A stretch of 64,000 nt of DNA from Streptacidiphilus jiangxiensis (GTDB taxonomy: Bacteria; Actinomycetota; Actinomycetes; Streptomycetales; Streptomycetaceae). A model generated the notes under the pieces. The model was not told the DNA's origin, did not search any database, and saw only the letters and a program-made list of their open reading frames with translations. Where the stretch lies: NCBI RefSeq assembly GCF_900109465.1, contig NZ_FOAZ01000011.1:206871-270870 (forward strand), given 5' to 3'. The position numbers were made by a program, and so were the translations under genes. This document shows positions 29,530 to 44,720 of the stretch, in pieces; position 1 is the first letter of the stretch, and each line of letters begins with the position of its first letter.

Positions 29530-30993
29530 ATGACGATCACTCAGCCTGAGCGCGTCGCGACCCGGACCGACCGGGCCGCTGACGTTTCCGCCCGCACCTC
29601 TGCCGCGGCCCGTCCGGGCCTGCTGCTCGGACTCGTCCTCACCGGCCAGTTCATGGCCCTGCTCGACGTCACCATCGTCAACGTCGCCGTCCCCGGCATG
29701 CGCGTCGACCTGCACGCCGGCGGTGCCGCGCTGCAGCTGGTCGTCGCCGGCTACGGGATCGCCTACGCGGTCCTGCTGATCACCGGCGCCCGCCTCGGCG
29801 AGCGCCACGGCTTCACCCGGCTCTTCCTCGGCGGGCTGGCCCTGTTCACCGCCGCCTCCCTGGCCTGCGGCCTCGCCCCCGGCGTCGGCGCGCTGATCGG
29901 CTTCCGGCTGCTGCAGGGGCTCGGCGCCGCGCTGATGGTGCCGCAGGTGATGAGCCTGATCCAGCGCACCTTCACCGGCCCGGCGCGGGTGCGGGCGCTG
30001 GGCGTCTACTCGGCGGTGCTGGCCGTCGGCGGTGTGACCGGCCAGGTCGTGGGCGGCGCGCTGGTCAGCGCGAACCTCTTCGGCTGGGGCTGGCGTCCGG
30101 TGTTCCTGGTCAACGTCCCCATCGGCGTGGCCCTGCTGGTGGCCGGGGCACGGCTGCTGCCCTCCGTCGCGGGGGAGCGGACGCGGCAGTTGGACCTACG
30201 CGGCATGCTGCTGCTCGCGGCCGCGATCGGCAGCCTGGTGATCCCGCTGGTGCTCGGCCACGACGAGAACTGGCCGCTCTGGTGCTGGGCGCTGCTCGGT
30301 GCGAGCGTCGCGCTGTTCACGGCCTTCGTCCTCGTCGAGCGCGGCCTCGCCCGCTCCGGCGGCCACCCGCTGATCCACAGCCGCGTGCTCCGGGCCCCCG
30401 GCCTGGTGCCCGCCGCGGCCGCGATGTTCCTGGTGATGACCGGCGTCGCCGGGTTCTCCTTCTCCCTGGCCATGCACCTGCAGGCGGGCCTCGGCGTGAG
30501 CGCGCTGCGCAGTGGGCTCACCGTCGCCCCGACGATGCTGGGCTTCGGCGCGGCCGGCCTGTGGTGGCAGCGCCTCCCGCAGCGCCTGCACGGAGGGCTC
30601 CCCCAGTTCGCCCTGGTCGCCGCCGCGTCGGCCTTCGCCGCGGTCGCCCTGCTGGCCCGCGACGGCGCCGCGGTCTCCTGGTCGGAGCGCGCCGCGCTCC
30701 TCGCCATCGGCATCGCGGGCGGCTGCGCCTATAGCCCCCTCTTCGCCCGCGCGCTCGGGTGCGTCGCACCGGAGCACGCGGCGGACGCCAGCGGTGTCAT
30801 GGTGACCGTCCTTCAGCTGGGCCAGGTCGTGGGCGTCGCCGCCCTCGGCACGCTCTTCCTCTCCCAGGTCCACTACCCCGGCGCGACGCCGGCGAGCTCG
30901 GGCACGGCCCTCGCGATCACGCTCGGCGCGGTGGCCGCGCTGATGCTGGGCGCGGCCGTGCTGGTCAGGCCCGTACGGGGCGGTTCCCGCTGA
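29530..30993 (+). CDS. MFS efflux transporter, DHA2 family
   Basis: The 487-residue protein has about 14 hydrophobic helices, the count of the drug:H+ antiporter-2 family. The opening LLGLVLTGQFMALLDVTIVNVA and ARLGERHGFTRLFL (motif A-like) are family motifs, and GVTGQVVGGALVSA resembles antiporter motif C. It probably exports hydrophobic drugs by proton exchange at the cytoplasmic membrane. The divergent XRE gene likely controls it. The pair lies between two identical tRNA-Ala genes. Confidence 0.92.
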   Translation: MTITQPERVATRTDRAADVSARTSAAARPGLLLGLVLTGQFMALLDVTIVNVAVPGMRVDLHAGGAALQLVVAGYGIAYAVLLITGARLGERHGFTRLFLGGLALFTAASLACGLAPGVGALIGFRLLQGLGAALMVPQVMSLIQRTFTGPARVRALGVYSAVLAVGGVTGQVVGGALVSANLFGWGWRPVFLVNVPIGVALLVAGARLLPSVAGERTRQLDLRGMLLLAAAIGSLVIPLVLGHDENWPLWCWALLGASVALFTAFVLVERGLARSGGHPLIHSRVLRAPGLVPAAAAMFLVMTGVAGFSFSLAMHLQAGLGVSALRSGLTVAPTMLGFGAAGLWWQRLPQRLHGGLPQFALVAAASAFAAVALLARDGAAVSWSERAALLAIGIAGGCAYSPLFARALGCVAPEHAADASGVMVTVLQLGQVVGVAALGTLFLSQVHYPGATPASSGTALAITLGAVAALMLGAAVLVRPVRGGSR

Positions 30994-31058
30994 GGGAAAC
31001 GGATTGGTGGGCGGCCTCGTGGAACGTGTACAGTTAGGGACGTCGCCGCGAGGCGCAC

Positions 31059-31131
<73 letters not shown>

Positions 31132-31139
31132 CAGCAGGT

Positions 31140-31183
31140 CCGAGGGCCGGTATCCACCACGGATACCGGCCCTCGGCTTTTTT
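31140..31183 (+). terminator. Intrinsic terminator after tRNA-Ala copy 2
   Basis: CCGAGGGCCGGTATCC and its exact complement form a 16-bp stem with an ACCAC loop, followed by CTTTTTTC. It is the most classical rho-independent terminator in the window. Confidence 0.93.
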
Positions 31184-31217
31184 CACGGACCCAAGGTTGC
31201 ACGACGCCCTTGGAGGG

Positions 31218-32702
31218 CTACGCCCTCGGGAGGCGCAGGGCCAGCGCCGGGCAGCCCGCCACTGCTCTGCGGGCCTGGGACTCCTGCCAGGGGGCGATCG
31301 GGGCGTCCGTGCGGAACACGGGGTAGCCGTGGGGGTCGAGGGTGAGCAGGTCCGGGGCGAGGGACGCGCACAGGCCGTGGGCGTCACAGCGGGACCAGTC
31401 CAGGGTGAGCCGGGTGCCCGCGGGTTCCGGCAGGGGGAGGCTGGTGCCCGGGCGCCGACCGCAGCCCCCGTGCTGCTGGTGCGCGGTGACCTCGTCCGCG
31501 AACGCGGTCAGTCCGGACAGGACGAAGCGCGCCGTGCCGTCGGGGTGGGCGCAGGCGCCGCGTCCGCGGCCCTGGGCCGCCGCGTGGCGGACCTCCTCGG
31601 GGCTGCCGCTCCCGCGCGTCAATGCGGCCAGCGCTGCCGCCGTCTCGGGCAGGCCGCGCCTGCACGGGCCGCACTGGCCCACGGACTCGCCGGCCAGCCA
31701 ACCCGCGACACGGGTCAGCTCGCCCAGCGCGCACACGCCCTGCGGCAGCACGGCGACGCTCGCCGCGCCCAGCACGCCCCCGGCGGCGGTGAGGCCGGCC
31801 CGGGAGAGAGCGGTGCGCTCGGCGACCTCGGGCCGCAGCCACCCGCCGTGGTAGCCGCCGACCAGCACGCCCGCCCCCGGGTCGACGCCGCAGGCGTCCA
31901 GCACGATGCCGAGCGGGGCCCCGGCGGGGATCTCCACCACGACGGGTGCCCGACCGCCGGCCCGGTTCACGGTGACCAGCAGCGTGCCCGACTCCTCGGG
32001 CGTGCCGACGACGGCGTAGCCGTCCGCGCCGAGCCGGACGAGCAGGGCGAGCTGGGCCCATGTCTCGGCGTTGCACAGCAGCGTCGGTCGTCCGCGCACT
32101 CCGCCGCGCCCGCCCTCGGCGGCCCGGACGGGCCGCGTCGACGGGACGGCGTCACGGCCGTTGACGGCGCGGACGAGCGCGCCGGACTCGCCGGAGACGA
32201 AGCGCTCGGGCACGCAGACCGTCCGCGTCGGCACCTGGTCGCGGCGGGCGCGCGCCCGTTCGTCGAGCGCGGCGGGCACGGAGAGCTCGCCCGGGCTGCC
32301 CGCCGCGACCGCGACGACCACCTCGGCGGCGCCGAACGCCGCGGCGGCGAGGGACACGCCGTCCAGCACCAGGTGCGGGGTGCGGGTGAGCAGCGTCGCG
32401 TCCTTGACGCTCGGCGGCTCGCCCTCGGTGGCGTTGACCACGAGGACGGGCGCCTGCCCGCCGCGCTGCGTCGCGGCGAGCGCGGCGTGCGCCTTGCGTG
32501 CGAACGGGAAGGCCGCGCCGCCGCGTCCGCGCAGGTCCACCCGCTCGGCGAGGGCGAGCAGCGCCTCCTGGGAGACGCGCGGCAGCGGGCCGTGGGTCCG
32601 CTCGTGGGCGGCCAGGTCCAGCCGCTCCCAGCGGTCCAGCCCGGCACTGAGCCGAGCCGGCCCCAGCCGCCGCACCTCCGTCACCGCGAGCCCGGCACTC
32701 AT
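31218..32702 (-). CDS. NuoF-like flavoprotein fused to a ferredoxin domain
   Basis: The 494-residue protein resembles the NADH/FMN subunit NuoF. It has the FMN motif GRGGAAFPFARK near 57, NATEGEPPSVKD near 90, an SLBB-type domain near 240-290 and an iron-sulfur region GQCGPCRRG near 350. The first of the expected three clustered cysteines is valine (ESVGQC). A C-terminal ferredoxin domain (about 430-490) has the C-x5-C...C pattern of 3Fe-4S ferredoxins (RCDAHGLC, GCPALAL). It would pass electrons from NAD(P)H or a ferredoxin to its partner. It overlaps the membrane-protein gene upstream by four bases (ATGA), so the two are cotranslated. Confidence 0.85.
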   Translation of the reverse strand: MSAGLAVTEVRRLGPARLSAGLDRWERLDLAAHERTHGPLPRVSQEALLALAERVDLRGRGGAAFPFARKAHAALAATQRGGQAPVLVVNATEGEPPSVKDATLLTRTPHLVLDGVSLAAAAFGAAEVVVAVAAGSPGELSVPAALDERARARRDQVPTRTVCVPERFVSGESGALVRAVNGRDAVPSTRPVRAAEGGRGGVRGRPTLLCNAETWAQLALLVRLGADGYAVVGTPEESGTLLVTVNRAGGRAPVVVEIPAGAPLGIVLDACGVDPGAGVLVGGYHGGWLRPEVAERTALSRAGLTAAGGVLGAASVAVLPQGVCALGELTRVAGWLAGESVGQCGPCRRGLPETAAALAALTRGSGSPEEVRHAAAQGRGRGACAHPDGTARFVLSGLTAFADEVTAHQQHGGCGRRPGTSLPLPEPAGTRLTLDWSRCDAHGLCASLAPDLLTLDPHGYPVFRTDAPIAPWQESQARRAVAGCPALALRLPRA

Positions 32703-34363
32703 CCGACCACGCCTCCGGCCGCCGGGGCGTCCCAGGTGAGCGGACCCCACTCACCCGACGGCCAGTCAGCCCACCCACCCGGCATCGCGCCCGGCTGCGG
32801 CGTCCAGCCAGGACCGGGGACCTGGCTCGCTCCGTCCCACCCGGAGGTGCCGTACCAGCCCGTGGGTATCTGGCCGGTGGCGTGCTCCCACCCGGCCGGG
32901 CCGCCGCTGCCCGGCCCGGGGACCTGACCCGCTGCGTTCCACCCGCCGATGCCGTACCAGCCCGTGGGTATCTGGCCGGTGGCGTGTTCCCATCCGACCG
33001 CGCCGTCGCCGCCCGGCACCGGGACCTGGCCGGTGGCCTGCTCCCAGGTGGGAGCCGCGGCAGGCTGGTACCCACCGGCCGCAGCCCCGGCCGCGGCGGG
33101 CGCCTCGGCTCCGGTCCGGGCGTGGGCGCCCACGGGCCTGCCGGCACCTGCGGCGTGACGCCCCCGAGGCGCTTCGAGGTCGGCGGGCGCGCCCTGCCCG
33201 GACCAGTCCTCGTGTCCGGTCCAGTCCCGGTGTCCGGCCCCGCCCCCGTGGCCACCACCGCTCCACGCCGCGCCGGCTGTCGGGCCGGTCGGGGCTGCGC
33301 CCGCCCAGGCGCCGAGCGGTCCGGCCGTGGCGGGCCTGCCTGCTGCCCGGGCGCGGTGGGCGCCCTGGACGGGGATGCCCGGGTTGTTCGCGAACGCGCC
33401 GTGCACGGGGACGCCGTGGGGCGGGGTGTCGGCGAGGCGGGGATGTTCGCGGGGGCGGTCGGGTGAGGTGGCGGCGGCAGCCGGGACGTGCTCCCGTGTC
33501 TCCGCGTGCTCCCGGGCCTCCGCGCGGGTGGCGCGGGTGGCGTAGGGGACGGGTTCGTGTTCGCGCGAGAGCGCGCCCAGTTCGGCGAGCGCCACGCGCG
33601 AGGGGCGGCGGGCGCGGTAGGCGCGGGCCCGGCCGGCCCGGCCACTGCTCGCGAGGCGGTCCAACAGGCCGAGGGCCCGGATCAGGAGGGCGAGGGCGAC
33701 CAGCGCACCGCAGACGCCGTAGCTCCACAGGACCCAGACCGCCGCCGCTCGCCCGGCGGTGAGGCCGTGGGCGAGCGCGATGGGCCAGCAGGCGTACGCG
33801 GAGGCGTGCAGGACCCGCCACAGCCCGGGGCGGCGCGCGTCGGCGAACCGACCGCGCACCGCGCCCGTCGCGGCGGCGAGGACGAGCAGGTCCGCCGCCA
33901 GCGTGCCGAGGCCGACGGCGAACGTGGCCCCTCCGCCGAAGGGCAGCAGCGCGGTCAGCGGGCTCGCGTCGTGCTCGGCGATCTTGACGCCGATGTGCGT
34001 GGCGAGGAACCCGAGTGCCGCGACGGAGGTCGCGCGGTGCACCGACTGGGCGGCGACCCGTAGGCGCGGCGTGAGGACGAGCCGGTCGGTCGCGGCCAGC
34101 CCGCAGAGCACCGCCGCGGTCAGGGACAGGAGCGTGAAGACGCCCGCGAAGTAGTCGAGGAAGGCGAGCAGGCGTTCCGCCGTGCCGCTGAGCACCTGCG
34201 GCGCGTGGCCGCCGGACACGAGCGCGCGGACGGCGGTGGCGGCGATGGTGACCGCCGCGCAGACCGCGAGCAGGAAGAGGGGGAACGGGGGGAGCGCGGG
34301 CAGTAAACCTCCGCGGGAGCCGCGGCGGCCGCGGACTCCTCCTCGTGGCTGTCGCATCGTCAT
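32699..34363 (-). CDS. Ferric-reductase-like membrane protein with repeat-rich tail
   Basis: The 554-residue protein has about six transmembrane helices in the first 240 residues. Paired histidines (SVHRATS and ATHIGV; VLHASA and ALAHGL) are placed like the bis-heme ligands of ferric-reductase or cytochrome b families. The remaining 310 residues are predicted disordered, rich in Gly/Ala/Pro/Trp, and end with two 34-residue repeats (GWEHATGQIPTGWYG...QVPGPG) plus a degenerate third (WEQATGQVPVPGG). Together with the NuoF/ferredoxin protein it probably forms a transmembrane electron-transfer module. Acceptor unknown. The start at ATG 34363 is likely; an ATG two codons later is possible. Confidence 0.82.
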   Translation of the reverse strand: MTMRQPRGGVRGRRGSRGGLLPALPPFPLFLLAVCAAVTIAATAVRALVSGGHAPQVLSGTAERLLAFLDYFAGVFTLLSLTAAVLCGLAATDRLVLTPRLRVAAQSVHRATSVAALGFLATHIGVKIAEHDASPLTALLPFGGGATFAVGLGTLAADLLVLAAATGAVRGRFADARRPGLWRVLHASAYACWPIALAHGLTAGRAAAVWVLWSYGVCGALVALALLIRALGLLDRLASSGRAGRARAYRARRPSRVALAELGALSREHEPVPYATRATRAEAREHAETREHVPAAAATSPDRPREHPRLADTPPHGVPVHGAFANNPGIPVQGAHRARAAGRPATAGPLGAWAGAAPTGPTAGAAWSGGGHGGGAGHRDWTGHEDWSGQGAPADLEAPRGRHAAGAGRPVGAHARTGAEAPAAAGAAAGGYQPAAAPTWEQATGQVPVPGGDGAVGWEHATGQIPTGWYGIGGWNAAGQVPGPGSGGPAGWEHATGQIPTGWYGTSGWDGASQVPGPGWTPQPGAMPGGWADWPSGEWGPLTWDAPAAGGVVG

Positions 34364-34660
34364 CTCAGGGGCCTCCGACCAGTCGTGAGCCTGATGAGCC
34401 GTGATGGGTTCGTGATGTTACCGAGACGTTCGGACAGCGGAAGGGGGTCTGATGATTCGTTCGAAAATGTGCACACTTCCGCCGCGAATGGCGCACGACT
34501 CACGCACACACGCTCGAACAGAACAACAACCCGAACTGATGAATAATCAGCCAATCATCGGAGCGAGCGGCTGCATCCCTGCTCCGAGCCTCCCCCCGCT
34601 GCGCATCCTTCCGTCGATCGCGTACCGACACGGCGCGCAGACGAGAGAGGTGTTCCTTCC

Positions 34661-36649
34661 ATGCGTCCCACCAGGAGGCTCCTGGCCCTGACGGCGTCCC
34701 TGCTGTGCGCCGGGATCACGGCCGCCGCCGCGCTCCCCAGCGCGGCCGCGGCCGACCGGACCAGGCCGGACCGCGTCCCCCTCCCCGGCACGGCACCCGT
34801 CTGGACCGCGGAGCAGCTCGACCAGGGAGTCGTGCCCGGCACGTCCCGGGTCGAGGCCCGCGTCTACCTCGCCGGACGGGCCGGCCGCGCCCTCGCAGCC
34901 GAGGCCAAGGCCGTCTCCGATCCCCACTCCCGCTCGTACCGACACTTCCTGACGCCTGAGCAGATCCGCGCGCGCTTCGCCCCGTCCCAGGCGCAGATCG
35001 ACGCGGTCACGGCCTGGCTGACCGGCGCCGGCTTCCGGGTGGTCGGCGGCAACAGCCACTACCTCACCGTCGCTGGTGACGCCTCCGCTGCCACCCGTGC
35101 CTTCGGCGCCCACCTGCACGCCTACCGCAAGGGCGGTCATGTCTACACCGCGCCGGACGGGCTGACCACGGTGCCGGCCTCGGTCGCCGACGACGTCCTC
35201 TCCGTCACCGGCCTCGACTCGGCGCCGCACCAGGCCCACCACGACGACACCCTGCCGGGCCCCGGCAGCGCCTTCGTCAACGCGCCGCCGATGTCCGACT
35301 ACTACGGCGCGCAGTCCGCCACCACAGTGCCCAAGGCCTACGGCCGGGTGATGCCGTACGTGGTCAGGGGCTACACCGGCAAGCAGCTGCGCGCCGCCTA
35401 CGGCGCCACCGCGACCGGTCTCACCGGGGCGGGCGTGAAGATCGCCGTTGTCGACGCCTACGACTCGCCGACCCTGCTGAGCGACCTCTCCCAGTACGCG
35501 ACCGCGCACGGCGACGCCCCCTACGTCGCCGGCCAGCTCACCCGCGTCGACGCCACCACCTGGACCCACACCGCGGACCCCTCGATGAGCGCCCCCGACG
35601 GCTGCGGCGCCTCCGGCTGGTACGGGGAGCAGACGCTCGACCTGGAGGCCGTGCACGCGATGGCCCCCGCCGCGAACCTCACCTACATCGGCGCAGCCTC
35701 CTGCGGTGACGCCGACCTGGTCGACGCGCTGAACAAGGTCAACGACGGCCACCTGGCGGACATCGTCAGCGACAGCTGGGGCGAGCCGGAGCTCGGCAGC
35801 GACCCGGCGATGGACCCGGTCTACGACAAGATCTTCATGACCGGCGCGGCCGAGGGCATCGGCTACTACTTCTCCAGCGGCGACGGCGGCGACGAGAAGG
35901 CCGCGACCGGCGCGAAGCAGACCGACATGCCCGCCTCCCTGCCCTGGGTGACCGCCGTCGGCGGCACGTCCCTCGCCGTCGGCGCGGACGGGCAGTACCT
36001 CTTCGAGACCGGCTGGGGCACGGACAAGTCGCTGCTGAACTCCTCCGGTACCTCGTGGTCCTCTCTGCCCGGCGCGTTCGTGGCCGGCGCGGGCGGCGGG
36101 ACGAGTGCGCGGGTCGCGCAGCCGTCCTACCAGAAGGGGATCGTCCCCGGCGCGCTCTCCCTGGTCGCCGGCAACGCGCACCGTGTGGTCCCGGACATTG
36201 CCGCGGTCGCGGACTCCAGCACCGGCTTCCTGATGGGCCAGACCCAGACGTTCCCCGACGGCACCACGAAGTACAGCGAGTACCGCATCGGCGGGACGAG
36301 CCTCGCCTCCCCGGTGATCGCCGGAATCCAGGCGCTGGCCCAGCAGGAAGCGGGCGGGCCGCTGGGGTTCGCGAACCCGGCGATCTACGAGCGGTACGGC
36401 ACCCAGGCGCTGCACGACGTCACGGACTCCCCGTACGGCAAGAACGTCCAGCTGGCGGAGGTCCGACTGGACTACAGCAACAGCGTCGACGCCTCCGGCG
36501 GCACGGTCACCTCCCTGCGCACCCTCGGCCGCGACTCGTCGCTGCACGCGACGCAGGGCTACGACGACGTCACCGGCGTCGGCACCCCGTCCGCGGGCTA
36601 CATCCCCTCCTACGGACCTCTCGGCGGAGCCCCCGCCTCGGCCCGCTAG
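34661..36649 (+). CDS. Secreted S53-family serine-carboxyl protease (sedolisin)
   Basis: The 662-residue preproprotein has a Sec signal peptide (cleavage near AAA-ADR at about residue 31), an activation prodomain (about 40-195) and a catalytic domain. The triad is E323 and D327 in GEQTLDLEAVH and S547 in GGTSLASP. The oxyanion Asp is D408 in SSGDGG. Such proteases are active at acidic pH outside the cell. GAGAGAGG precedes the ATG. The 297 bp upstream, shared with the divergent membrane protein, are AT-rich for this genome (around 34530-34560) and probably hold promoters, but I see no clear -35/-10 pair. Confidence 0.93.
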   Translation: MRPTRRLLALTASLLCAGITAAAALPSAAAADRTRPDRVPLPGTAPVWTAEQLDQGVVPGTSRVEARVYLAGRAGRALAAEAKAVSDPHSRSYRHFLTPEQIRARFAPSQAQIDAVTAWLTGAGFRVVGGNSHYLTVAGDASAATRAFGAHLHAYRKGGHVYTAPDGLTTVPASVADDVLSVTGLDSAPHQAHHDDTLPGPGSAFVNAPPMSDYYGAQSATTVPKAYGRVMPYVVRGYTGKQLRAAYGATATGLTGAGVKIAVVDAYDSPTLLSDLSQYATAHGDAPYVAGQLTRVDATTWTHTADPSMSAPDGCGASGWYGEQTLDLEAVHAMAPAANLTYIGAASCGDADLVDALNKVNDGHLADIVSDSWGEPELGSDPAMDPVYDKIFMTGAAEGIGYYFSSGDGGDEKAATGAKQTDMPASLPWVTAVGGTSLAVGADGQYLFETGWGTDKSLLNSSGTSWSSLPGAFVAGAGGGTSARVAQPSYQKGIVPGALSLVAGNAHRVVPDIAAVADSSTGFLMGQTQTFPDGTTKYSEYRIGGTSLASPVIAGIQALAQQEAGGPLGFANPAIYERYGTQALHDVTDSPYGKNVQLAEVRLDYSNSVDASGGTVTSLRTLGRDSSLHATQGYDDVTGVGTPSAGYIPSYGPLGGAPASAR

Positions 36650-36656
36650 GGCCGAC

Positions 36657-36772
36657 AGGGGCGCGGGGAACGGCGCGAGAAACCCACCGCAGGCGGATGG
36701 CCCTGTCCGCTCGGGATCTCAATGACCTGGGTGGCTTGTCGCGCAGTTCCCCGCGTCCCTGGACGGTGCAAC
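36657..36772. repeat. Intergenic palindromic repeat, copy B
   Basis: The inverted arms are AGGGGCGCGGGGAACGGCGCG and GCGCAGTTCCCCGCGTCCCTG (each given in part), ending GGTGCAAC. The inner GCGGATGGCCCT arm is kept but its partner has diverged, so this copy is degenerate. It starts eight bases after the protease stop and ends just before the leuS leader promoter. Confidence 0.75.
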
Positions 36773-36801
36773 TCCTGCGGAAGCCCAAAGTGACCGCCTG
36801 C

Positions 36802-36807
36802 TACCCT
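36802..36807 (+). promoter_or_regulatory. -10 element (TACCCT) of the leuS leader
   Basis: TACCCT fits TANNNT and lies six bases before the ATG of the leader peptide, so the transcript would begin at or next to that ATG. No convincing -35 is seen. Confidence 0.5.
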
Positions 36808-36813
36808 TGCGCC

Positions 36814-36852
36814 ATGCGAACTGCGCGCCTGCTCCTTAGCCGGCCGCGCTGA
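36814..36852 (+). CDS. Leu-rich leader peptide ([12 protein letters not shown]) upstream of leuS
   Basis: The 12-codon ORF reads [12 protein letters not shown]. It contains three consecutive Leu codons of three kinds (CTG, CTC, CTT at 36829-36837). It is followed by structured RNA and an intrinsic terminator before leuS. This is the classic layout of ribosome-mediated attenuation, in which stalling at Leu codons under leucyl-tRNA shortage prevents termination. The ATG lies six bases after a -10 hexamer, suggesting a leaderless message. No protein function is expected. Confidence 0.7.
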
Positions 36853-36925
36853 CAAGGACCGGCCCGTTCGGAAGCGACGTTGGCCGGAGTCAGCGTGGCG
36901 ACCCCTCATGGACGAGGGGTTTTTT
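36843..36925 (+). promoter_or_regulatory. leuS: Putative leucine attenuator before leuS
   Basis: GCCGCGCTGAC (36843-36853, overlapping the leader stop) can pair with GTCAGCGTGGC (36889-36899) with one mismatch. The terminator stem ACCCCTC/GAGGGGT (36901-36907 and 36914-36920) follows at once, with a run of T to 36925. A second pairing, GGACCGGCC with GGCCGG, competes with the first stem. A ribosome halted on the Leu codons would cover the first arm. The exact antiterminator is not proven by eye. Confidence 0.6.
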
Positions 36926-36979
36926 CGTTTTCCGGCACGCATCACCCTTCCGAGCTGGCACCCCTGGAGTCTGAGGACG

Positions 36980-39874
36980 ATGAGCGAGAGCACCTCCGAG
37001 GCGGCTGCGGCCGCTCCGTACCGGTACACCCACGCCCTGGCGGCGCAGATCGAGGCCCGTTGGCAGGACCGCTGGGAGAAGGACGGCGTCTTCGCCGCCC
37101 CGAACCCGGTCGGGCCGCTGGCGGATGCCGCCGACGCCGACGCGGCCTCGCGTCCGCACGCGTTCATCATGGACATGTTCCCGTACCCGTCCGGCGCGGG
37201 CCTGCACGTGGGGCACCCGCTGGGGTACATCGCGACCGACGTGTACGCCCGTCACCTGCGGATGACCGGGCACAACGTGCTGCACACCATGGGCTTCGAC
37301 GCCTTCGGCCTGCCGGCCGAGCAGTACGCGGTGCAGACCGGCACCCACCCGCGGGTGACCACCGAGGCGAACATCGCCAAGTACCGGGAGCAGCTGCGCA
37401 GCCTGGGCCTGGGCCACGACCTGCGGCGCTCGATCTCCACGATCGACCCGTCGTACTACAAGTGGACCCAGTGGATCTTCCTGCAGATCTTCAACTCCTG
37501 GTACGACCCGGAGGCGCAGGCCGCCCGTCCGATCGCCGAGCTGGTCGAGAAGTTCGCCTCCGGCGCCGTGCAGACTCCGGACGGCCGCGCCTGGTCCGCG
37601 CTGACGCCCGCCGAGCGGGACGAGCTGCTGGGTGAGTACCGCCTGGCCTTCGTCAAGCAGGCCCCGGTCAACTGGTGCCCGGGCCTGGGCACCGTGCTGG
37701 CCAACGAGGAGGTCACCGCCGACGGTCGCTCCGAGCGCGGCAACTTCCCCGTCTTCAAGGCCAACCTGCGGCAGTGGATGATGCGGATCACCGCCTACGC
37801 GGACCGCCTGATCGACGACCTGGACCTGCTGGACTGGCCCGAGGCCATCAAGCTGCAGCAGCGCAACTGGATCGGCCGCTCCGAGGGCGCCAAGGTCGAC
37901 TTCAAGGTCCACACCACCGAGGCGGGCGACGGCGACGCCGCCATCACCGTCTTCACCACCCGCCCGGACACGCTGTTCGGCGCCACCTACATGGTGCTGG
38001 CGCCCGAGCACGAGCTGGTCGAGTCGATCGTCCCGGCCGCCTGGCCGACCGCCGATGGCGACCTGCCGGTCGAGTGGACCGGTGGCTACGCCACGCCCAC
38101 CGAGGCCGTCGACGCCTACCGCCGTCAGGCCGCCGCCAAGTCCGACGTGGAGCGCCAGGCCGACGCCAAGACCAAGACCGGTGTCTTCACCGGCTCCTAC
38201 GCGGTCAACCCGGTCAGCGGCGAGCTGGTCCCGGTCTTCATCGCCGACTACGTGCTGATGGGCTACGGCACCGGCGCGATCATGGCCGTCCCGGCGCACG
38301 ACAGCCGCGACTTCGCCTTCGCGCGGGCGTTCCGGCTGCCGATGCGCTGCGTCGTCCAGCCGTCCGACGACCGCGGCACCGACCCGTCGACGTGGGACGA
38401 CTCGTTCGACTCCTACGACGCCGCCATCGTCAACTCGAAGAACGACTTCATCTCGCTGGACGGTCTGGGCGTCGTCGACGCCAAGAAGGCCATCACCGAC
38501 TGGCTGGCCACCCAGGGCATCGGCGCGGGCACCGTCAACTACAAGCTGCGCGACTGGCTGTTCAGCCGTCAGCGCTACTGGGGCGAGCCGTTCCCGATCG
38601 TCTACGACGAGGACGGCGTCGCGCACCCGCTGCCCGCCTCGATGCTGCCGGTCGAGCTGCCCGAGATCGAGGACTACTCGCCGCGCACCTTCGACCCGGA
38701 CGACGCGGACACCAAGCCCGAGACGCCGCTGTCGCGCGCCGAGGACTGGGTCAGCGTCACCCTGGACCTGGGCGACGGGCCCAAGCAGTACCGCCGCGAG
38801 ACCAACACCATGCCCAACTGGGCCGGTTCGTGCTGGTACGAGCTGCGCTACGTGGACCCGGAGGACGACACCGAGGTCGTCAACCCGGTCAACGAGGCCT
38901 ACTGGATGGGCCCGACCGAGGTGAAGAAGGCCGGCGGCGCCGACCTGTACGTCGGTGGCGCCGAGCACGCCGTGCTGCACCTGCTGTACGCGCGCTTCTG
39001 GCACAAGGTGCTGTTCGACCTGGGCCACGTCAGCTCCTGCGAGCCGTTCCACAAGCTGTTCAACCAGGGCATGATCCAGGCCTACGTCTACCGCGACGAG
39101 CGCGGCTTCCCGGTCCCGGCCGCGGAGACCGAGGAGCGCGACGGCGTCTGGTACTTCGAGGGCAAGCCGGTCAGCCGCGAGATCGGCAAGATCGGCAAGT
39201 CGCTGAAGAACGTGGTGGCGCCGGAGGAGGTCACCGGCGAGTACAGCGTCGACACGCTGCGCCTGTACGAGATGGCGATGGGCCCGCTGGACGTCTCCCG
39301 TCCGTGGGACACCCGCGCCGTCGTCGGCTCCTTCCGCTTCCTGCAGCGCCTGTGGCGCACGGTCGTGGACGAGGAGACCGGCGAGGTCGTCGTCACCGAC
39401 GAGACGCCGGACGAGGAGACGCTGCGCGCGCTGAACAAGGCGATCGACGGCGTCCGCACGGACATGCTGAACCTGCGGTTCAACACGGCGGTCGCCAAGG
39501 CCACCGAGCTGAACAACTTCCTGGTCAAGCGCGGCTCCACGCCGCGGGCCGTGGCCGAGCAGGCGGTGCTGCTGGTCGCCCCGCTGGCCCCGCACATCGC
39601 CGAGGAGCTGTGGGAGAAGCTGGGCCACGAGGAGTCGCTGGTCCACGCCCAGCTGCCCGAGGCCGACCCGGCCTACCTGGTGGAGGACTCGGTCACCTGC
39701 GTCGTCCAGATCAAGGGCAAGGTCAAGGCCCGCCTGGAGGTGCCGCCGGCCATCGGTGACGCCGAGCTGGAGACGCTGGCCCTGGCCGACCCGGCGGTCG
39801 TGGCCGCGCTGGGCGGCGCCGAGGTGCGCAAGGTCATCGTCCGCGCGCCGAAGCTGGTCAACATCGTCGTCTGA
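36980..39874 (+). CDS. leuS: Leucyl-tRNA synthetase
   Basis: This 964-residue class I synthetase charges tRNA-Leu. The HIGH motif appears as H76-V-G-H79 in [15 protein letters not shown] and the KMSKS motif as K737-I-G-K-S741. A large CP1 editing insertion occupies roughly 270-500. The length and the extended C-terminus are typical of actinobacterial LeuS. ATG at 36980 was chosen because GGAG lies about 11 bases upstream and the 24 upstream codons run through the attenuator. Expression is probably controlled by the leader described before it. Confidence 0.96.
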
Positions 39875-39899
39875 TCCTCCGAGATGTTCGACAACTGAT

Positions 39900-39933
39900 A
39901 CCGGAAGGGACGGGTCCGCCTGTCCCTTCCGGT
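39900..39933 (+). terminator. Terminator hairpin after leuS
   Basis: ACCGGAAGGGAC pairs perfectly with GTCCCTTCCGGT around a ten-base loop, 26 bases after the leuS stop. Confidence 0.82.
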
Positions 39934-39957
39934 CTTCCGGCGGGTAACCTCCAGGCC

Positions 39958-40797
39958 ATGTCCGTCGCCATCCTCACCGACTCCACCGCGTACCTTCCGG
40001 AGGAGGAGGTGGCCCGCCACGGGATCTCCGTCGTCCCGCTCAGCGTGGTCATCGGCGACCAGGCCCTCGCCGAGGGCACCGAGATCTCCCCGGCCGAGGT
40101 CGCCGCCGCGCTGCAGCGCAGGGCACCGGTCACCACCTCCCGTCCCAACCCCGAGGCCTTCGCCGAGGCGTACCGGGCCGCGGCCGAGGCGGGCGCGAGC
40201 GAGGTCGTCTCACTGCACCTGTCCGCCGCCCTCTCCGGCACCTACGAGGCCGCGCTGCTCGCCGCCGAGGAGGCACCGCTGCCGGTGCGCGTCGTCGACA
40301 CCCGTATGGTTGGCATGGCGCTCGGCTACTGCGTCCTCGCCGCCGCCGAGGCCGCCCGCGACGGTGGCACCGCGGACCAGGCCGTCGAGGCCGCGACCGC
40401 CCGGGCCAAGGGCACGGCCGGTCTCTTCTACGTCGACACCCTGGAGTACCTGCGCCGGGGCGGTCGCATCGGCGCCGCCCGCGCCATGCTCGGCTCCGCA
40501 CTCGCGGTCAAGCCGCTGCTGCACCTGGCCGACGGTCAGATCCAGCCGCTGGAGAAGGTCCGCACCTCCAGTCGCGCCATCGCCCGGCTGGAGGAGCTGG
40601 CCGTCGCCCACGCCGGCGGCGACGAGGTCGACCTGGCGGTCCACCACCTCGCCGCCCCCGACCGCGCGGAGGCCCTGGCCGCCCGGCTGCGCGAGCAGGT
40701 ACCGCACCTGGGCGAACTGGTCGTCTCCGAGGTCGGCGCGGTCATCGGCGCGCACGTGGGGCCGGGCCTGCTCGCGGTCGTCGTCTCGCCGCGCTGA
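39958..40797 (+). CDS. DegV-family fatty-acid-binding protein
   Basis: The 279-residue protein has the DegV N-terminal signature SVAILTDSTAYLP, the TSRPNPEAF block and SLHLSAALSGTYEAA. The central VDTLEYLRRGGRIGAARAMLG is also diagnostic. Family members bind a single fatty acid; in some bacteria they serve fatty-acid kinases (FakB). No fakA is in the window. TAACCT (39945-39950) sits seven bases before the ATG, so the mRNA is likely leaderless. Confidence 0.93.
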   Translation: MSVAILTDSTAYLPEEEVARHGISVVPLSVVIGDQALAEGTEISPAEVAAALQRRAPVTTSRPNPEAFAEAYRAAAEAGASEVVSLHLSAALSGTYEAALLAAEEAPLPVRVVDTRMVGMALGYCVLAAAEAARDGGTADQAVEAATARAKGTAGLFYVDTLEYLRRGGRIGAARAMLGSALAVKPLLHLADGQIQPLEKVRTSSRAIARLEELAVAHAGGDEVDLAVHHLAAPDRAEALAARLREQVPHLGELVVSEVGAVIGAHVGPGLLAVVVSPR

Positions 40798-40895
40798 ACC
40801 CGTTTCCCCGGTCCGTGTACGACATGGATTGACGCGCCCGCACGCGGGCATCCTCCGAGCATCAGGCGCACCAGGGGCACCGGGAGGAGAACGCC

Positions 40896-41240
40896 ATGGC
40901 CCACGCCTGCCCCAGCTGCGGGATGGCCGAACAGGTCGTCAAACTCGACCACTTCTATCTGGCCCTGCCCGACGGCAGCGGCCTCAAGTCCTCGTTCGCG
41001 CCGCCGGCGACGCGCGCCTCGAGCTACGGGGTGCCGCTCGTCGTCGCCGCCGTCGGGGCGTTCTTCGTGATCGACGGCGCCGTGGTGCTGGGCCTGCTGC
41101 TCCTGCTGGTCGCCGCGGTGCTCGCGATGGTCGTCTCGCGCGGTGTCGACGAGGCCCGCCGGGCCCGTGCGCACTGGGAGCGGCAGATGTTCTGCCGCCA
41201 CTGCGCGATCCGTTTCGTGCCGGAGGAGCCCGGCGGGTAA
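40896..41240 (+). CDS. Zinc-ribbon membrane protein of unknown function
   Basis: The 114-residue protein has two CxxC pairs, one at each end (HACPSCGM near residue 4 and FCRHCAIRF near 100). They flank one or two hydrophobic helices (VPLVVAAVGAFFVIDGAVVL and LGLLLLLVAAVLAM). The cysteines could form a split zinc ribbon on the cytosolic side. I know no function. CGGGAGGAG lies before the ATG. It lies between the DegV-like gene and comEA, which suggests no specific pathway. Confidence 0.75.
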   Translation: MAHACPSCGMAEQVVKLDHFYLALPDGSGLKSSFAPPATRASSYGVPLVVAAVGAFFVIDGAVVLGLLLLLVAAVLAMVVSRGVDEARRARAHWERQMFCRHCAIRFVPEEPGG

Positions 41241-41337
41241 CTCGCGCGAGTGAGCCGGTTCTCCACAGACGCAGGTTTTCCACAGGCCGTCAGTTCGTCC
41301 GGGACGCCTGTGTGTGCGGGCTCCTAACGTCGGCCGC

Positions 41338-42204
41338 ATGCGAACCGCTCTGACCCCTGCGGCCCGGGCCCGTCGTGAGGCGACGACGGCCCTGGTACGC
41401 CACCGCGTCGACACCCTCTTCGGTCCTCAGGCCCAAGCCCTTGCCTCGGCTCGGACTCCGCCTTCCCCTCCCGCCCCACCTCCCGCCCCGATGCCGCGGC
41501 CGGAGGTGACGGCCGTGCTGCCGCAGGCCGCCCCGGATCCACCACGGCTGCGTCCTCCGCTCGCCTCCTCGCTCGCGCTCGCGCTCAAGGAGCGATGGGA
41601 CCTGGACCGCAAGGCCCTGCTCGGGCTCGCCGTCCTGCTCTTGCTCGCCCTCGGCTACGGCATCCAGCACTTCTGGGCCGGCCGCCCGGAGCCCGTCGCC
41701 GTCCCCGCCCCGGCCGTGGAGGGGACGGTCGGGGCGGGCGCGTCCTCCTCGCCCACACCCGGGCCGGGCGTCCCGGTGGCGGGCAGCACGACCATCACCG
41801 CGCTGGTCGTCGACGTGTCCGGCAAGGTGCGCAGCCCCGGGCTGCGCACCCTCCCGCCCGGTTCGCGCGTCCAGGACGCCCTCAACGCGGCGGGCGGCCC
41901 GTTGCCCGGTACGGACCTGACCGGCCTCAACCTCGCCCGCAAGGTCAACGACGGCGAGGAGATCATCGTCTCCGGCTCGCCCCCGCCGCCCGGCGCCGCC
42001 GCCCGCGCCTCCGGTCCGCTCAGCCTCAACGCCGCCACCGAGGCCCAACTGGACGCCCTGCCCGGCATCGGCCCGGTCTTGGCCCAGCGCATCATCCAGT
42101 TCCGCCAGGAACACGGCGGGTTCCAGTCCGTCGACCAGCTCCGCCAGGTCCCGGGCTTCGGCGAACGCCGCCTGGCCGACCTCCGCGCGCAGCTCCGCCC
42201 ATGA
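41338..42204 (+). CDS. comEA: ComEA-family DNA-binding protein
   Basis: The 288-residue protein has a Pro-rich cytosolic N-terminus and one transmembrane helix (about 95-115; LLGLAVLLLLALGYGI). An SLBB domain (about 150-205; VVDVSGKVRSPGLRTLPPGSRV) and a helix-hairpin-helix domain (about 220-288; LNAATEAQLDALPGIGPVLA) follow. It is the membrane DNA receptor of transformation systems and is paired with ComEC. Natural competence is not established in most streptomycetes. TAACGT lies seven bases before the ATG. The stop overlaps the comEC start (ATGA). Confidence 0.93.
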   Translation: MRTALTPAARARREATTALVRHRVDTLFGPQAQALASARTPPSPPAPPPAPMPRPEVTAVLPQAAPDPPRLRPPLASSLALALKERWDLDRKALLGLAVLLLLALGYGIQHFWAGRPEPVAVPAPAVEGTVGAGASSSPTPGPGVPVAGSTTITALVVDVSGKVRSPGLRTLPPGSRVQDALNAAGGPLPGTDLTGLNLARKVNDGEEIIVSGSPPPPGAAARASGPLSLNAATEAQLDALPGIGPVLAQRIIQFRQEHGGFQSVDQLRQVPGFGERRLADLRAQLRP

Positions 42205-44720
42205 GGGGGAGTGGGGAGGAGCCCCCGGCGTCGGTCCGCGGCCTGTCCTCGGTGGAGTCGGCTCCTGCCGCGCCGAAGCCCGCTGCGCCCAAGTCTGCCG
42301 TGCCCCGGGCCGTCCCGGAGGCTGCCGGCAGGGTCGCGGGTGGGGCCCGGGCCGGGGAGGGCCCCCGCGCGGCGGAGGAACGGCCGCTGGACGTGCGACT
42401 GGTGGGGCCCGCCGTGGTGGTGTGGGGCCTCAGCGCCGCGCTGCTGCCGCTGCGGGGCGCACACACCGCGTGGGTGCTCGGCGCGGCCGGCGGCGCCGGG
42501 GTGCTCGGGCTCGGGCTGCTGCTGGGCCGGGTACGGCCGCGTCTGCTCGCGGCCCTGCTGCTCAGCGCGGCGGCCGCCGCGTGCAGCACCGGGCTGGCGG
42601 GAGCCGCCCTGACACGCGGCCCGGTGCCCGCGCTGGCCCGCTCCGGCCGTCCGGCCGCGGTGCGGCTGACGGTGACGACGGATCCGCAGCGCCGCGCCAC
42701 CGACGGCAACGTCGTCCTGCGCGGCGTCGTCGACGCCGTCGCGGACGCCGCCACCAGCGCCCCCGTCCGTGTGGTCGTGCGCGGCCCGGCGGCGGGGGAG
42801 TGGCTGCGACTGCTGCCCTCGACACAGGTCGCCGTCACCGCCCGGGCCCGCCCCGTCCCACCCGACGGGCCGCCCGACATCGCCGCCACACTGCTGACGG
42901 CGGATCAGCCCCGGGTCCTGGTCGGCCCCGACGCCCCGCAGCGCGCGGCGGGCGCGCTGCGGTCGGGGCTGCGGCAGGCCGTCGCACCGCTGTCGGAGGA
43001 CGAGCGGGCCCTTCTGCCGGGCCTCGTCGACGGCGACACCAGCGCCATGACCCCCGAGCTGGACGAGGCCTTCCTGGCCACCGACCTCACCCACCTCACC
43101 GCCGTCAGCGGCTCCAACCTGTCGATCATGATGGTGCTGCTGATCGGCCGCGCCTCCCGGGCCCGCACCCCCGAGCGCGGCGGGCTCGCCGCCCGCCTCG
43201 GGCTGCCCCTGCGCGCCGCCGCCCTCGCCGGCGCCCTGCTGACCGCCGCCTTCGTCGTCCTGTGCCGGCCGGACCCGAGCGTGCTGCGTGCCGCCGCGAC
43301 GGGCCTGGTGATGCTGCTCGGCCTGGCCACCGGCCGCCGCGGCAGCCCCCTGCCGGCCCTGGCCGGGGCCACGCTGGTGCTCATCCTCGCCGACCCGGCC
43401 CTCGCCCACTCCTACGGCTTCGCGCTCTCCGCGCTCGCCACGGCGGGGTTGGTCACGGTGGGCCCGCGCTGGGGCGAGGCCCTGCGCGCGGCCGGCTGCC
43501 CGGCCCGTCTCGCCGAGCCGCTGGCCGCCGCCGCGGCGGCACAGGCCTGGTGCGGTCCGCTGCTGGTGCTGCGCTCCGGGCGGCTCTCCCTGGTCGCCGT
43601 CCCCTGCAACCTGCTCGCCGAGCTGTGCGTCGCCCCGGCGACGGTGCTGGGCTTCGCCGCCCTCGCGGTCGCCCCGCTGTGGCTGACCGGAGCGCAGTGG
43701 ATCGCCCGGGTCGGCGCCGTCCCGGTCTGGGCGCTGATCCAGGTGGCCCGCCTCGGCGCGGCCCTGCCCGGAGCCGAGACGGACTGGCCCGTGGGCTGGT
43801 TCGGCGCCGCCCTGCTGATCGCCGTGACCTGCGCCCTCGTCGCCGCGGCCGCGTGGCTGCGCCGCCCGCTGGTGGCCGCGTTCCTGGCGGTCTGCCTGCT
43901 GCTGGTGCTGCTCCGTCCGCCCCCGCTGGCCCGGCTCGCCACGGGCTGGCCCCCGCCCGGCTGGCGCCTGGTCGCCTGCGACGTGGGCCAGGGCGACGCC
44001 CTCGTCCTCTCGCCCGGCGACGACCCGGGCACCGCCGTCCTCGTCGACACCGGCCCCGACCCGCACGCCGTCGACGGCTGCCTGCGCGCCCTCGGCGTCT
44101 CCACGATCCCGCTGGTGATTCTCACCCACGACCACGCCGACCACGTCGAGGGCCTCCCCGGGGTGCTGCACGACCGCCGCGTCGGCGCGGTGGAGACCAC
44201 GACGGTCGACGACCCGCCGGCCGAGTACGCCCGCGTCCGCCGCTGGACCGCCGAGGCCGGTGTCCCGCTGATCCGCGCGGTGCGCGGCGAGCGGCGCGCG
44301 CTCGGCGCGCTCCACTGGGAGGTGCTGTGGCCGCCGGATCCCTCCGGGGAGGGAGTCCCGCCCGGCCCCAACAACGCCTCGGTCGCGCTCCTGGTCACCC
44401 TCCCGGGCCTGCGGATGGCGCTGCTGGGCGATCTGGAGCCTCCCGCCCAACAGCGGCTCCTCGGCGCCGTCGGGCCCGTGGACGTGCTCAAGGTCGCTCA
44501 CCACGGCTCCGCCAAGCAGGACCCGGCACTGATCGCCGCGCTCCATCCCCGCCTGGCGCTGCTCTCGGTCGGCCGCGGCAACCGCTACGGCCATCCGGCC
44601 CCCACCACGCTCCGCCTGCTGCGCTCCCTCGGCACCACCGTCGTCCGCACGGACCAGCAGGGTGACCTGGCGGTCCTGCTCACGGACGGAGCCCTCGCCG
44701 TCGCGGTGCGCGGAGCGTAG
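42201..44720 (+). CDS. comEC: ComEC/Rec2-family DNA-uptake channel
   Basis: The 839-residue polytopic protein has a Competence domain of many helices (about 240-560) and a C-terminal metallo-beta-lactamase domain (about 595-835) with THDHADH near 641-647 and GLRMALLGDLE. It forms the membrane channel for single-stranded DNA in competent bacteria, and the lactamase domain may degrade the other strand. It is translationally coupled to comEA. The first 60 residues are an Ala/Pro-rich extension of doubtful function. Whether uptake occurs in this organism cannot be told. Confidence 0.94.
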   Translation: MRGSGEEPPASVRGLSSVESAPAAPKPAAPKSAVPRAVPEAAGRVAGGARAGEGPRAAEERPLDVRLVGPAVVVWGLSAALLPLRGAHTAWVLGAAGGAGVLGLGLLLGRVRPRLLAALLLSAAAAACSTGLAGAALTRGPVPALARSGRPAAVRLTVTTDPQRRATDGNVVLRGVVDAVADAATSAPVRVVVRGPAAGEWLRLLPSTQVAVTARARPVPPDGPPDIAATLLTADQPRVLVGPDAPQRAAGALRSGLRQAVAPLSEDERALLPGLVDGDTSAMTPELDEAFLATDLTHLTAVSGSNLSIMMVLLIGRASRARTPERGGLAARLGLPLRAAALAGALLTAAFVVLCRPDPSVLRAAATGLVMLLGLATGRRGSPLPALAGATLVLILADPALAHSYGFALSALATAGLVTVGPRWGEALRAAGCPARLAEPLAAAAAAQAWCGPLLVLRSGRLSLVAVPCNLLAELCVAPATVLGFAALAVAPLWLTGAQWIARVGAVPVWALIQVARLGAALPGAETDWPVGWFGAALLIAVTCALVAAAAWLRRPLVAAFLAVCLLLVLLRPPPLARLATGWPPPGWRLVACDVGQGDALVLSPGDDPGTAVLVDTGPDPHAVDGCLRALGVSTIPLVILTHDHADHVEGLPGVLHDRRVGAVETTTVDDPPAEYARVRRWTAEAGVPLIRAVRGERRALGALHWEVLWPPDPSGEGVPPGPNNASVALLVTLPGLRMALLGDLEPPAQQRLLGAVGPVDVLKVAHHGSAKQDPALIAALHPRLALLSVGRGNRYGHPAPTTLRLLRSLGTTVVRTDQQGDLAVLLTDGALAVAVRGA

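Follow-up and report, generated by a model that had tools for sequence, protein, structure and literature searches.

How expression of leuS, the gene for leucyl-tRNA synthetase, is controlled in Streptacidiphilus jiangxiensis is the question raised by the region that separates it from an upstream protease gene with pro-kumamolisin and subtilase domains (34661-36649; positions throughout are those of the window, the whole stretch of 64,000 nucleotides that was analysed). A preliminary description had read this region as a leucine attenuator operated by a peptide leader, and that reading is supported by conservation and by published cases in Streptomyces: in all likelihood the region attenuates transcription of leuS by way of the translating ribosome, and is the ortholog of the leuL2/leuS attenuator published for Streptomyces. 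The same description had set the peptide leader against a T-box, which likewise controls synthetase genes by tRNA charging; a leader peptide is present here, and a search of 30000-44000 against Rfam at the gathering threshold returned a single match, to a tRNA, with no T-box.

Attenuation of leuS is not itself new, since a 2005 study predicted classical attenuators before this gene in S. avermitilis and S. coelicolor (PMC1262725), and the leader LeuL2, MRAVRLLLSEPR, followed by a hairpin and uridines before leuS, was described in S. lividans TK24 in 2021 and called leaderless from RNA-seq and mapped transcription starts (PMC8079986). These Streptomyces attenuators, like the one here, feature three consecutive Leu codons, with a hairpin and T-run before leuS. 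The leucine attenuator is real and very probably working, and of a kind already published in this bacterial family; the contribution of the present analysis is its breadth, the covariation of its hairpins, a codon contrast between leader and leuS, and a missing antiterminator. In the passages of the two reports that concern leuS, the attenuators are confined to Streptomyces, and neither the breadth nor the codon contrast is described; among the papers listed by literature searches, none was recognised as treating leuS attenuation more broadly across Actinobacteria.

The anatomy of the element is collected in Table 1. The 12-residue leader, the stem that pairs with its end, and the hairpin with T-run before leuS all lie exactly where the preliminary description had placed them, the leader being correct to the base. 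Stem 1 comprises 11 bp, including one G-U, and overlaps the regulatory ORF, with five positions between the last Leu codon and its first base. A single nucleotide separates its end from the terminator arm (0-3 nt in the tabulated tails of relatives), in which ACCCCTC (36901-36907) pairs with GAGGGGT (36914-36920), followed by six T at 36920-36925. The fold of 36840-36930 has a z-score of -4.88, with none of 200 shuffles equally stable, and a scan of 36650-36990 identified one terminator, which is not significant by itself because shuffles yield 0.5 on average (sd 0.8). The terminator loop also contains an ATG (36908-36910) in frame with leuS; because of it, automatic ORF calling extends leuS upstream from 36980 to 36908, giving 988 aa, and for such genes a start at the terminator-loop ATG is likely to be an annotation error.

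Table 1. Features of the leuS upstream region, in window positions
Feature	Position	Strand	Basis or remark
-10 box TACCCT of leader promoter, predicted	36802..36807	+	six bases between box and ATG
Leader ORF, 12 codons, predicted leaderless	36814..36852	+	ATG at 36814, stop TGA 36850-36852
Regulatory Leu codons CTG CTC CTT	36829..36837	+	sequence; last Leu codon conservation in relatives
Stem 1, 5' arm, taking in the stop codon and the two sense codons ahead of it	36843..36853	+	folding; covariation over 71 leaders
Inner hairpin within stem 1	36859..36887	+	folding; variable length, often reduced in relatives
Stem 1, 3' arm	36889..36899	+	folding; covariation
Intrinsic terminator: stem and loop ATGGAC (36900-36921), T-run to 36925	36900..36925	+	folding; terminator scan; covariation in relatives
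leuS, leucyl-tRNA synthetase	36980..39874	+	TIGR00396, 878 bits (cut-off 548)

Conservation provides the decisive evidence, at the level of sequence, that the element is real: the Leu codons, the stem, the terminator and the promoter arrangement expected of a leaderless transcript are all kept across relatives, conservation of the Leu codons being among the checks that the preliminary description had proposed. An alignment of 71 leaders was made without supervision; 70 of these are leuS-verified or come from leuS loci, and one is truncated at a contig end. Pairing in stem 1 and the terminator is kept in 94.9% of the alignment cells, and both sides have changed in 10 of 17 pairs. Compensatory cells across the two hairpins number 76, against 21.9 (sd 5.6) in shuffles, none of 500 of which reaches 76, and versions of the alignment slid out of register give at most 14 doubly changed cells; the covariation that had been suggested as a check is therefore present in both hairpins. 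The arms of stem 1 beat all 1000 swapped pairings, and across 91 leaders its four outer pairs vary by G-U only.

The range of the element extends well beyond Streptomyces. Among 80 leuS loci of named genomes, the best 80 of 587 matching stretches, 36 are from Streptomyces, and in all 36 of these an orthologous leader peptide precedes leuS. A covariance model built from 22 leaders (R1) was searched in the window and in 60 of the 80 named loci, where at E <= 2.3e-5 it matches the window, 16/16 Streptomyces loci and 16/44 others, the latter including Jiangella, Plantactinospora, Catellatospora, Hamadaea, Kibdelosporangium, Prauserella, Lentzea, Pseudonocardia, Amycolatopsis, Actinopolyspora, Geodermatophilus, Modestobacter and Brachybacterium; at this threshold the remaining 28 of the 44, among them Mycolicibacterium, Nocardia, Corynebacterium and Aeromicrobium, gave no match. 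Further genomes were searched at E <= 0.01, where matches, some of them not before leuS, were returned for 14/14 of the window's genus, 170/394 of its class and 25/396 of its phylum. Inspection of 60 additional regions, mostly one per genus, identified leuS downstream in 53 and another gene in six, with one region ending too early. Within the class, leaders verified to precede leuS represent 24 families (f1, f2, f4-f7, f78, f79, f81-f84, f86, f87, f89-f93, f105, f107, f113-f115), and a further family, f39, belongs to another class. LeuS is only about 35-50% identical to that of the window in f39 and in several other families carrying the element, which is therefore found ahead of divergent types of LeuS. 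On this sequence evidence, the element is widespread in Actinobacteria.

A leader of this kind might simply encode a small protein from a leaderless message that ends at its own terminator, with no role in regulating leuS, a reading judged highly improbable. The predicted peptide spans 8-21 residues in 91 leaders and is variable outside the Leu run, and its stop codon shifts among leaders while stem 1 stays in place, falling within the stem in 75, as a TAG ending on the first stem base in eight, and farther on in eight. Among 39 inspected R1 loci, moreover, 34 lie before leuS, and these comprise every match at E <= 3.6e-5, the five elsewhere being weak.

The promoter of the leader can be placed from the same comparison. 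The TACCCT noted previously six bases before the leader ATG is present, and the geometry recurs in relatives: in 90 of the 91 leaders a TANNNT box stands upstream of the start codon, 6 nt away in 66 and 7 nt in 24, and the remaining leader is truncated at a contig end. The box lies outside R1 and is thus independent of the search model. A sigma-70-type promoter with a -35 box was found neither in the scan of 36650-36990 nor, as a -35 consensus, in the leaders. The spacing of 6-7 nt between box and start codon matches that described for leaderless S. lividans genes (PMC8079986), and transcription probably starts on the start codon of the leader itself. A G two bases upstream of TANNNT is kept in 84/90 leaders and is absent from the window itself, and TGnGn stands ahead of the box in 42/90, without an evident -35 box. 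Nearer leuS, many of the Streptomyces loci L002-L036 share a block around GACGATCGATGGAGCTTTGAGGA within the last 40 bases before the gene, longer than a ribosome-binding site requires. Three Mycolicibacterium and Williamsia loci (L062, L077, L074) yielded no leader; they have a TANNNT-like box a few bases before the leuS start, and leuS may therefore be leaderless there.

In trp-type and enterobacterial leu attenuators, a ribosome stalled on regulatory codons alters the hairpin formed before the terminator, and an antiterminator has been demonstrated. The logic proposed here is the same. With ample charged leucyl-tRNA, the ribosome would pass CTG CTC CTT, stop at the TGA within stem 1 and depart, upon which stem 1 and the adjoining terminator would form and transcription would end near 36925; under leucyl-tRNA shortage, it would wait on the Leu codons and cover the first arm of stem 1, allowing more polymerases to proceed into leuS. 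The leader and its two hairpins would in this model very probably raise the supply of LeuS when charged leucine tRNA is short. Two differences from the enterobacterial systems are that the leader is predicted to have no 5' UTR and that no antiterminator is supported. The actinobacterial leuA leader (the LEU element; LeuL1 in S. lividans) shares the Leu-run leader peptide and is leaderless in S. lividans, but is reported without a typical terminator, featuring instead a pseudoknot and a base stem over the leuA Shine-Dalgarno box.

The preliminary description had found no clear competing antiterminator stem, in agreement with the covariation, swap and equilibrium tests made here. The candidate tried was a pairing of the 3' arm of stem 1 with the terminator loop, the 3' arm being chosen as the test strand because it is free even in the shortest leaders. 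This pairing is seen in single folds and gained no support from any of the three tests: it shows no covariation in the leader alignment; real arm-tail pairs (mean -5.89) are no better than swapped ones (-6.16, sd 0.14), with 97.7% of permutations as good or better; and deletion of the first arm lowers the terminator probability, as a mean over 91 leaders, from 0.973 to 0.940, with a drop above 0.3 in only 4/91. In the window, deleting the first arm of stem 1 moves that probability from 0.997 to 0.993. The negative tests imply that the switch is either kinetic or dependent on stem 1 as a helper; an antiterminator acting kinetically would be compatible with them. A pairing of the CTCCTT sensor codons with the leuS ribosome-binding site was weighed by eye and not adopted.

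With its missing part supplied, the best explanation would be a classical three-way attenuator, in which the 3' arm, GCGCGG in Streptomyces, would on being freed form base pairs with CUGUGC in the terminator loop and hold the C-run in the antiterminator loop until the polymerase has passed. According to the 2005 report (PMC1262725), both of its Streptomyces possess antiterminators, a statement that finds no support in this analysis. Many single truncated folds do predict one, at about -8 kcal/mol in most Streptomyces, and real terminator loops pair slightly better with the arm than shuffled loops, 8 of 100 of which are as good, a result that is suggestive only. The lack of covariation and the outcome of the swap test nonetheless argue against it, as does the window itself, whose best hairpin of this type reaches only -3.8 kcal/mol while the terminator persists, and the three-way reading is accordingly held as a tentative one, with the odds somewhat against it.

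A second reading dispenses with a competing structure, stem 1 acting as a helper of the terminator, through stacked tandem hairpins or as a pause hairpin, until blocked by a stalled ribosome; the short terminator would then be leaky by itself. The negative antiterminator tests are what this reading expects, stem 1 nearly abuts the terminator, and its outer pairs hardly vary; at one locus (L193) stem 1 is almost loopless, so little else there is free to pair. The terminator is nevertheless predicted to be stable without stem 1, and the helper role is regarded as a possible but rather unlikely account.

Leucine codon usage separates the leader from the gene that it precedes. The last Leu codon of the leader is CTT in 84, CTC in six and CTG in one of 91 leaders, counts that are biased toward R1 because 18 of these leaders also trained the model and because the usual run of three Leu codons falls inside R1, which starts three codons ahead of it. 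Under standard wobble pairing, CTT and CTC are both presumably read by tRNA-Leu(GAG). All 77 Leu codons of leuS in the window are CTG, leaving CTC+CTT at 0/77, against 571/1484 (38%) in the other ORFs of the window, a background set defined by a crude GC3-based call (Fisher p 3e-16). In leuS of 35 Streptomyces loci, CTG occurs 2543 times, CTC 89, TTG nine and CTT not at all.

The contrast extends to genomes compared with one another. In 16 attenuator genomes CTC+CTT makes up 85/888 (9.6%) of leuS Leu codons and 403/1106 (36%) of those of a ValS-family control, leuS being lower in 15/16, whereas in 14 genomes without the element, meaning no R1 match at E <= 0.01 with strict filters, the counts are 240/789 and 378/982, leuS being lower in 10/14; the control falls below the valS cut-off in 14 of the 30 genomes and may there be another synthetase of that class. 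The leuS-control differences separate the two groups at a Mann-Whitney p of 0.0007, uncorrected for phylogeny. Among the named loci, median CTC+CTT is 4% with a leader (n=16) and 32% without (17 of 28, the other 11 being left out for low GC3). Exceptions occur in both directions, with leuS CTC+CTT of 28% (L055), 42% (L066), 31% (G062) and 32% (G085) in the presence of the element, and low values without an R1 match in Nocardia (L067-L069) and G050. The purging of these codons is thus an imperfect partner of the attenuator element.

Those low values without an R1 match, and the lack of a phylogenetic correction in the codon tests, speak for the possibility that the shunning of CTC and CTT by leuS has nothing to do with the attenuator and stems from some other cause, for instance high expression or inheritance. 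In eight attenuator genomes, however, CTC+CTT amounts to 22/466 in leuS against 152/399 in rpoB (8/8 genomes) and, in the seven of these in which leuC was found, 82/275 in leuC; because rpoB and leuC keep these codons, neither high expression nor leucine metabolism alone is sufficient. Within single families, too, leuS CTC+CTT is lower with the element than without it (f7, 7/46 and 20/61; f5, 17/53 and 35/56; f89, 2/46 and 7/44), and an unrelated cause is considered possible but rather unlikely. With the sensor codons absent from leuS in the window and rare in leuS of most genomes with the element, LeuS could still be made while tRNA-Leu(GAG) is short. The contrast is consistent with the theory of selective charging, by which attenuation leaders are reported to prefer the codons most sensitive to supply (PMC1183508). 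A narrow literature search found no statement on the clearing of sensor codons from a controlled synthetase gene.

R1 also recovered leaders of other branched-chain genes. In the same genome as the window, an ilvB attenuator (L120, G000:C77:7903-8012) has the leader MRTRILVLGGRVG, one residue from the ilvL reported in S. lividans, MRTRILVLGKRVG (PMC8079986). Family f17, which belongs to another class, has at L104/L205 the leader MSQNLLLT ahead of leuA (NF002086, 752 bits); the leader ATG follows a TANNNT box by 7 nt, and a terminator comes after the leader, making this a putative leuA attenuator that differs from the LEU element in having a terminator. Loci of family f9, also in another class (L103, L105, L106; longer stretches L203, L204), combine a leader that ends in LVLIT with a terminator, ahead of a small gene followed by ilvB; the small gene, of about 100 codons, has no Pfam or NCBIfam match, as tested for L203. 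Six loci of family f89 (L165, L177, L182, L187, L191, L200) feature a leader with consecutive Ile codons, for example MPSQVIIIVRRAG, and a terminator. Two of the six were read further (L201, L202), the gene behind the leader scoring 622 bits as citramalate synthase in L202 (TIGR00977), and the other four were assigned because their leader and initial residues agree with these; this may be, on sequence grounds, an isoleucine attenuator of cimA. The one paper listed by a brief literature search for a leader before citramalate synthase concerns, to judge from its title, valine overproduction.

A fuller account can be offered as speculation, in which an old actinobacterial attenuator, standing before distinct LeuS types, has a leader that senses one isoacceptor through CTT/CTC, a leuS purged of these codons, and a helper stem in place of an antiterminator. 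With sensor codons near zero in the controlled gene and ordinary in its neighbours, the leuS attenuator would offer a clear case for the selective charging of tRNA isoacceptors, and, having no demonstrable antiterminator, a compact RNA for testing termination control in high-GC bacteria. Attenuation of leuS is extended from a prediction in two species and one transcript of S. lividans to many families of an antibiotic-producing phylum, in which it would represent a control element of an essential synthetase.
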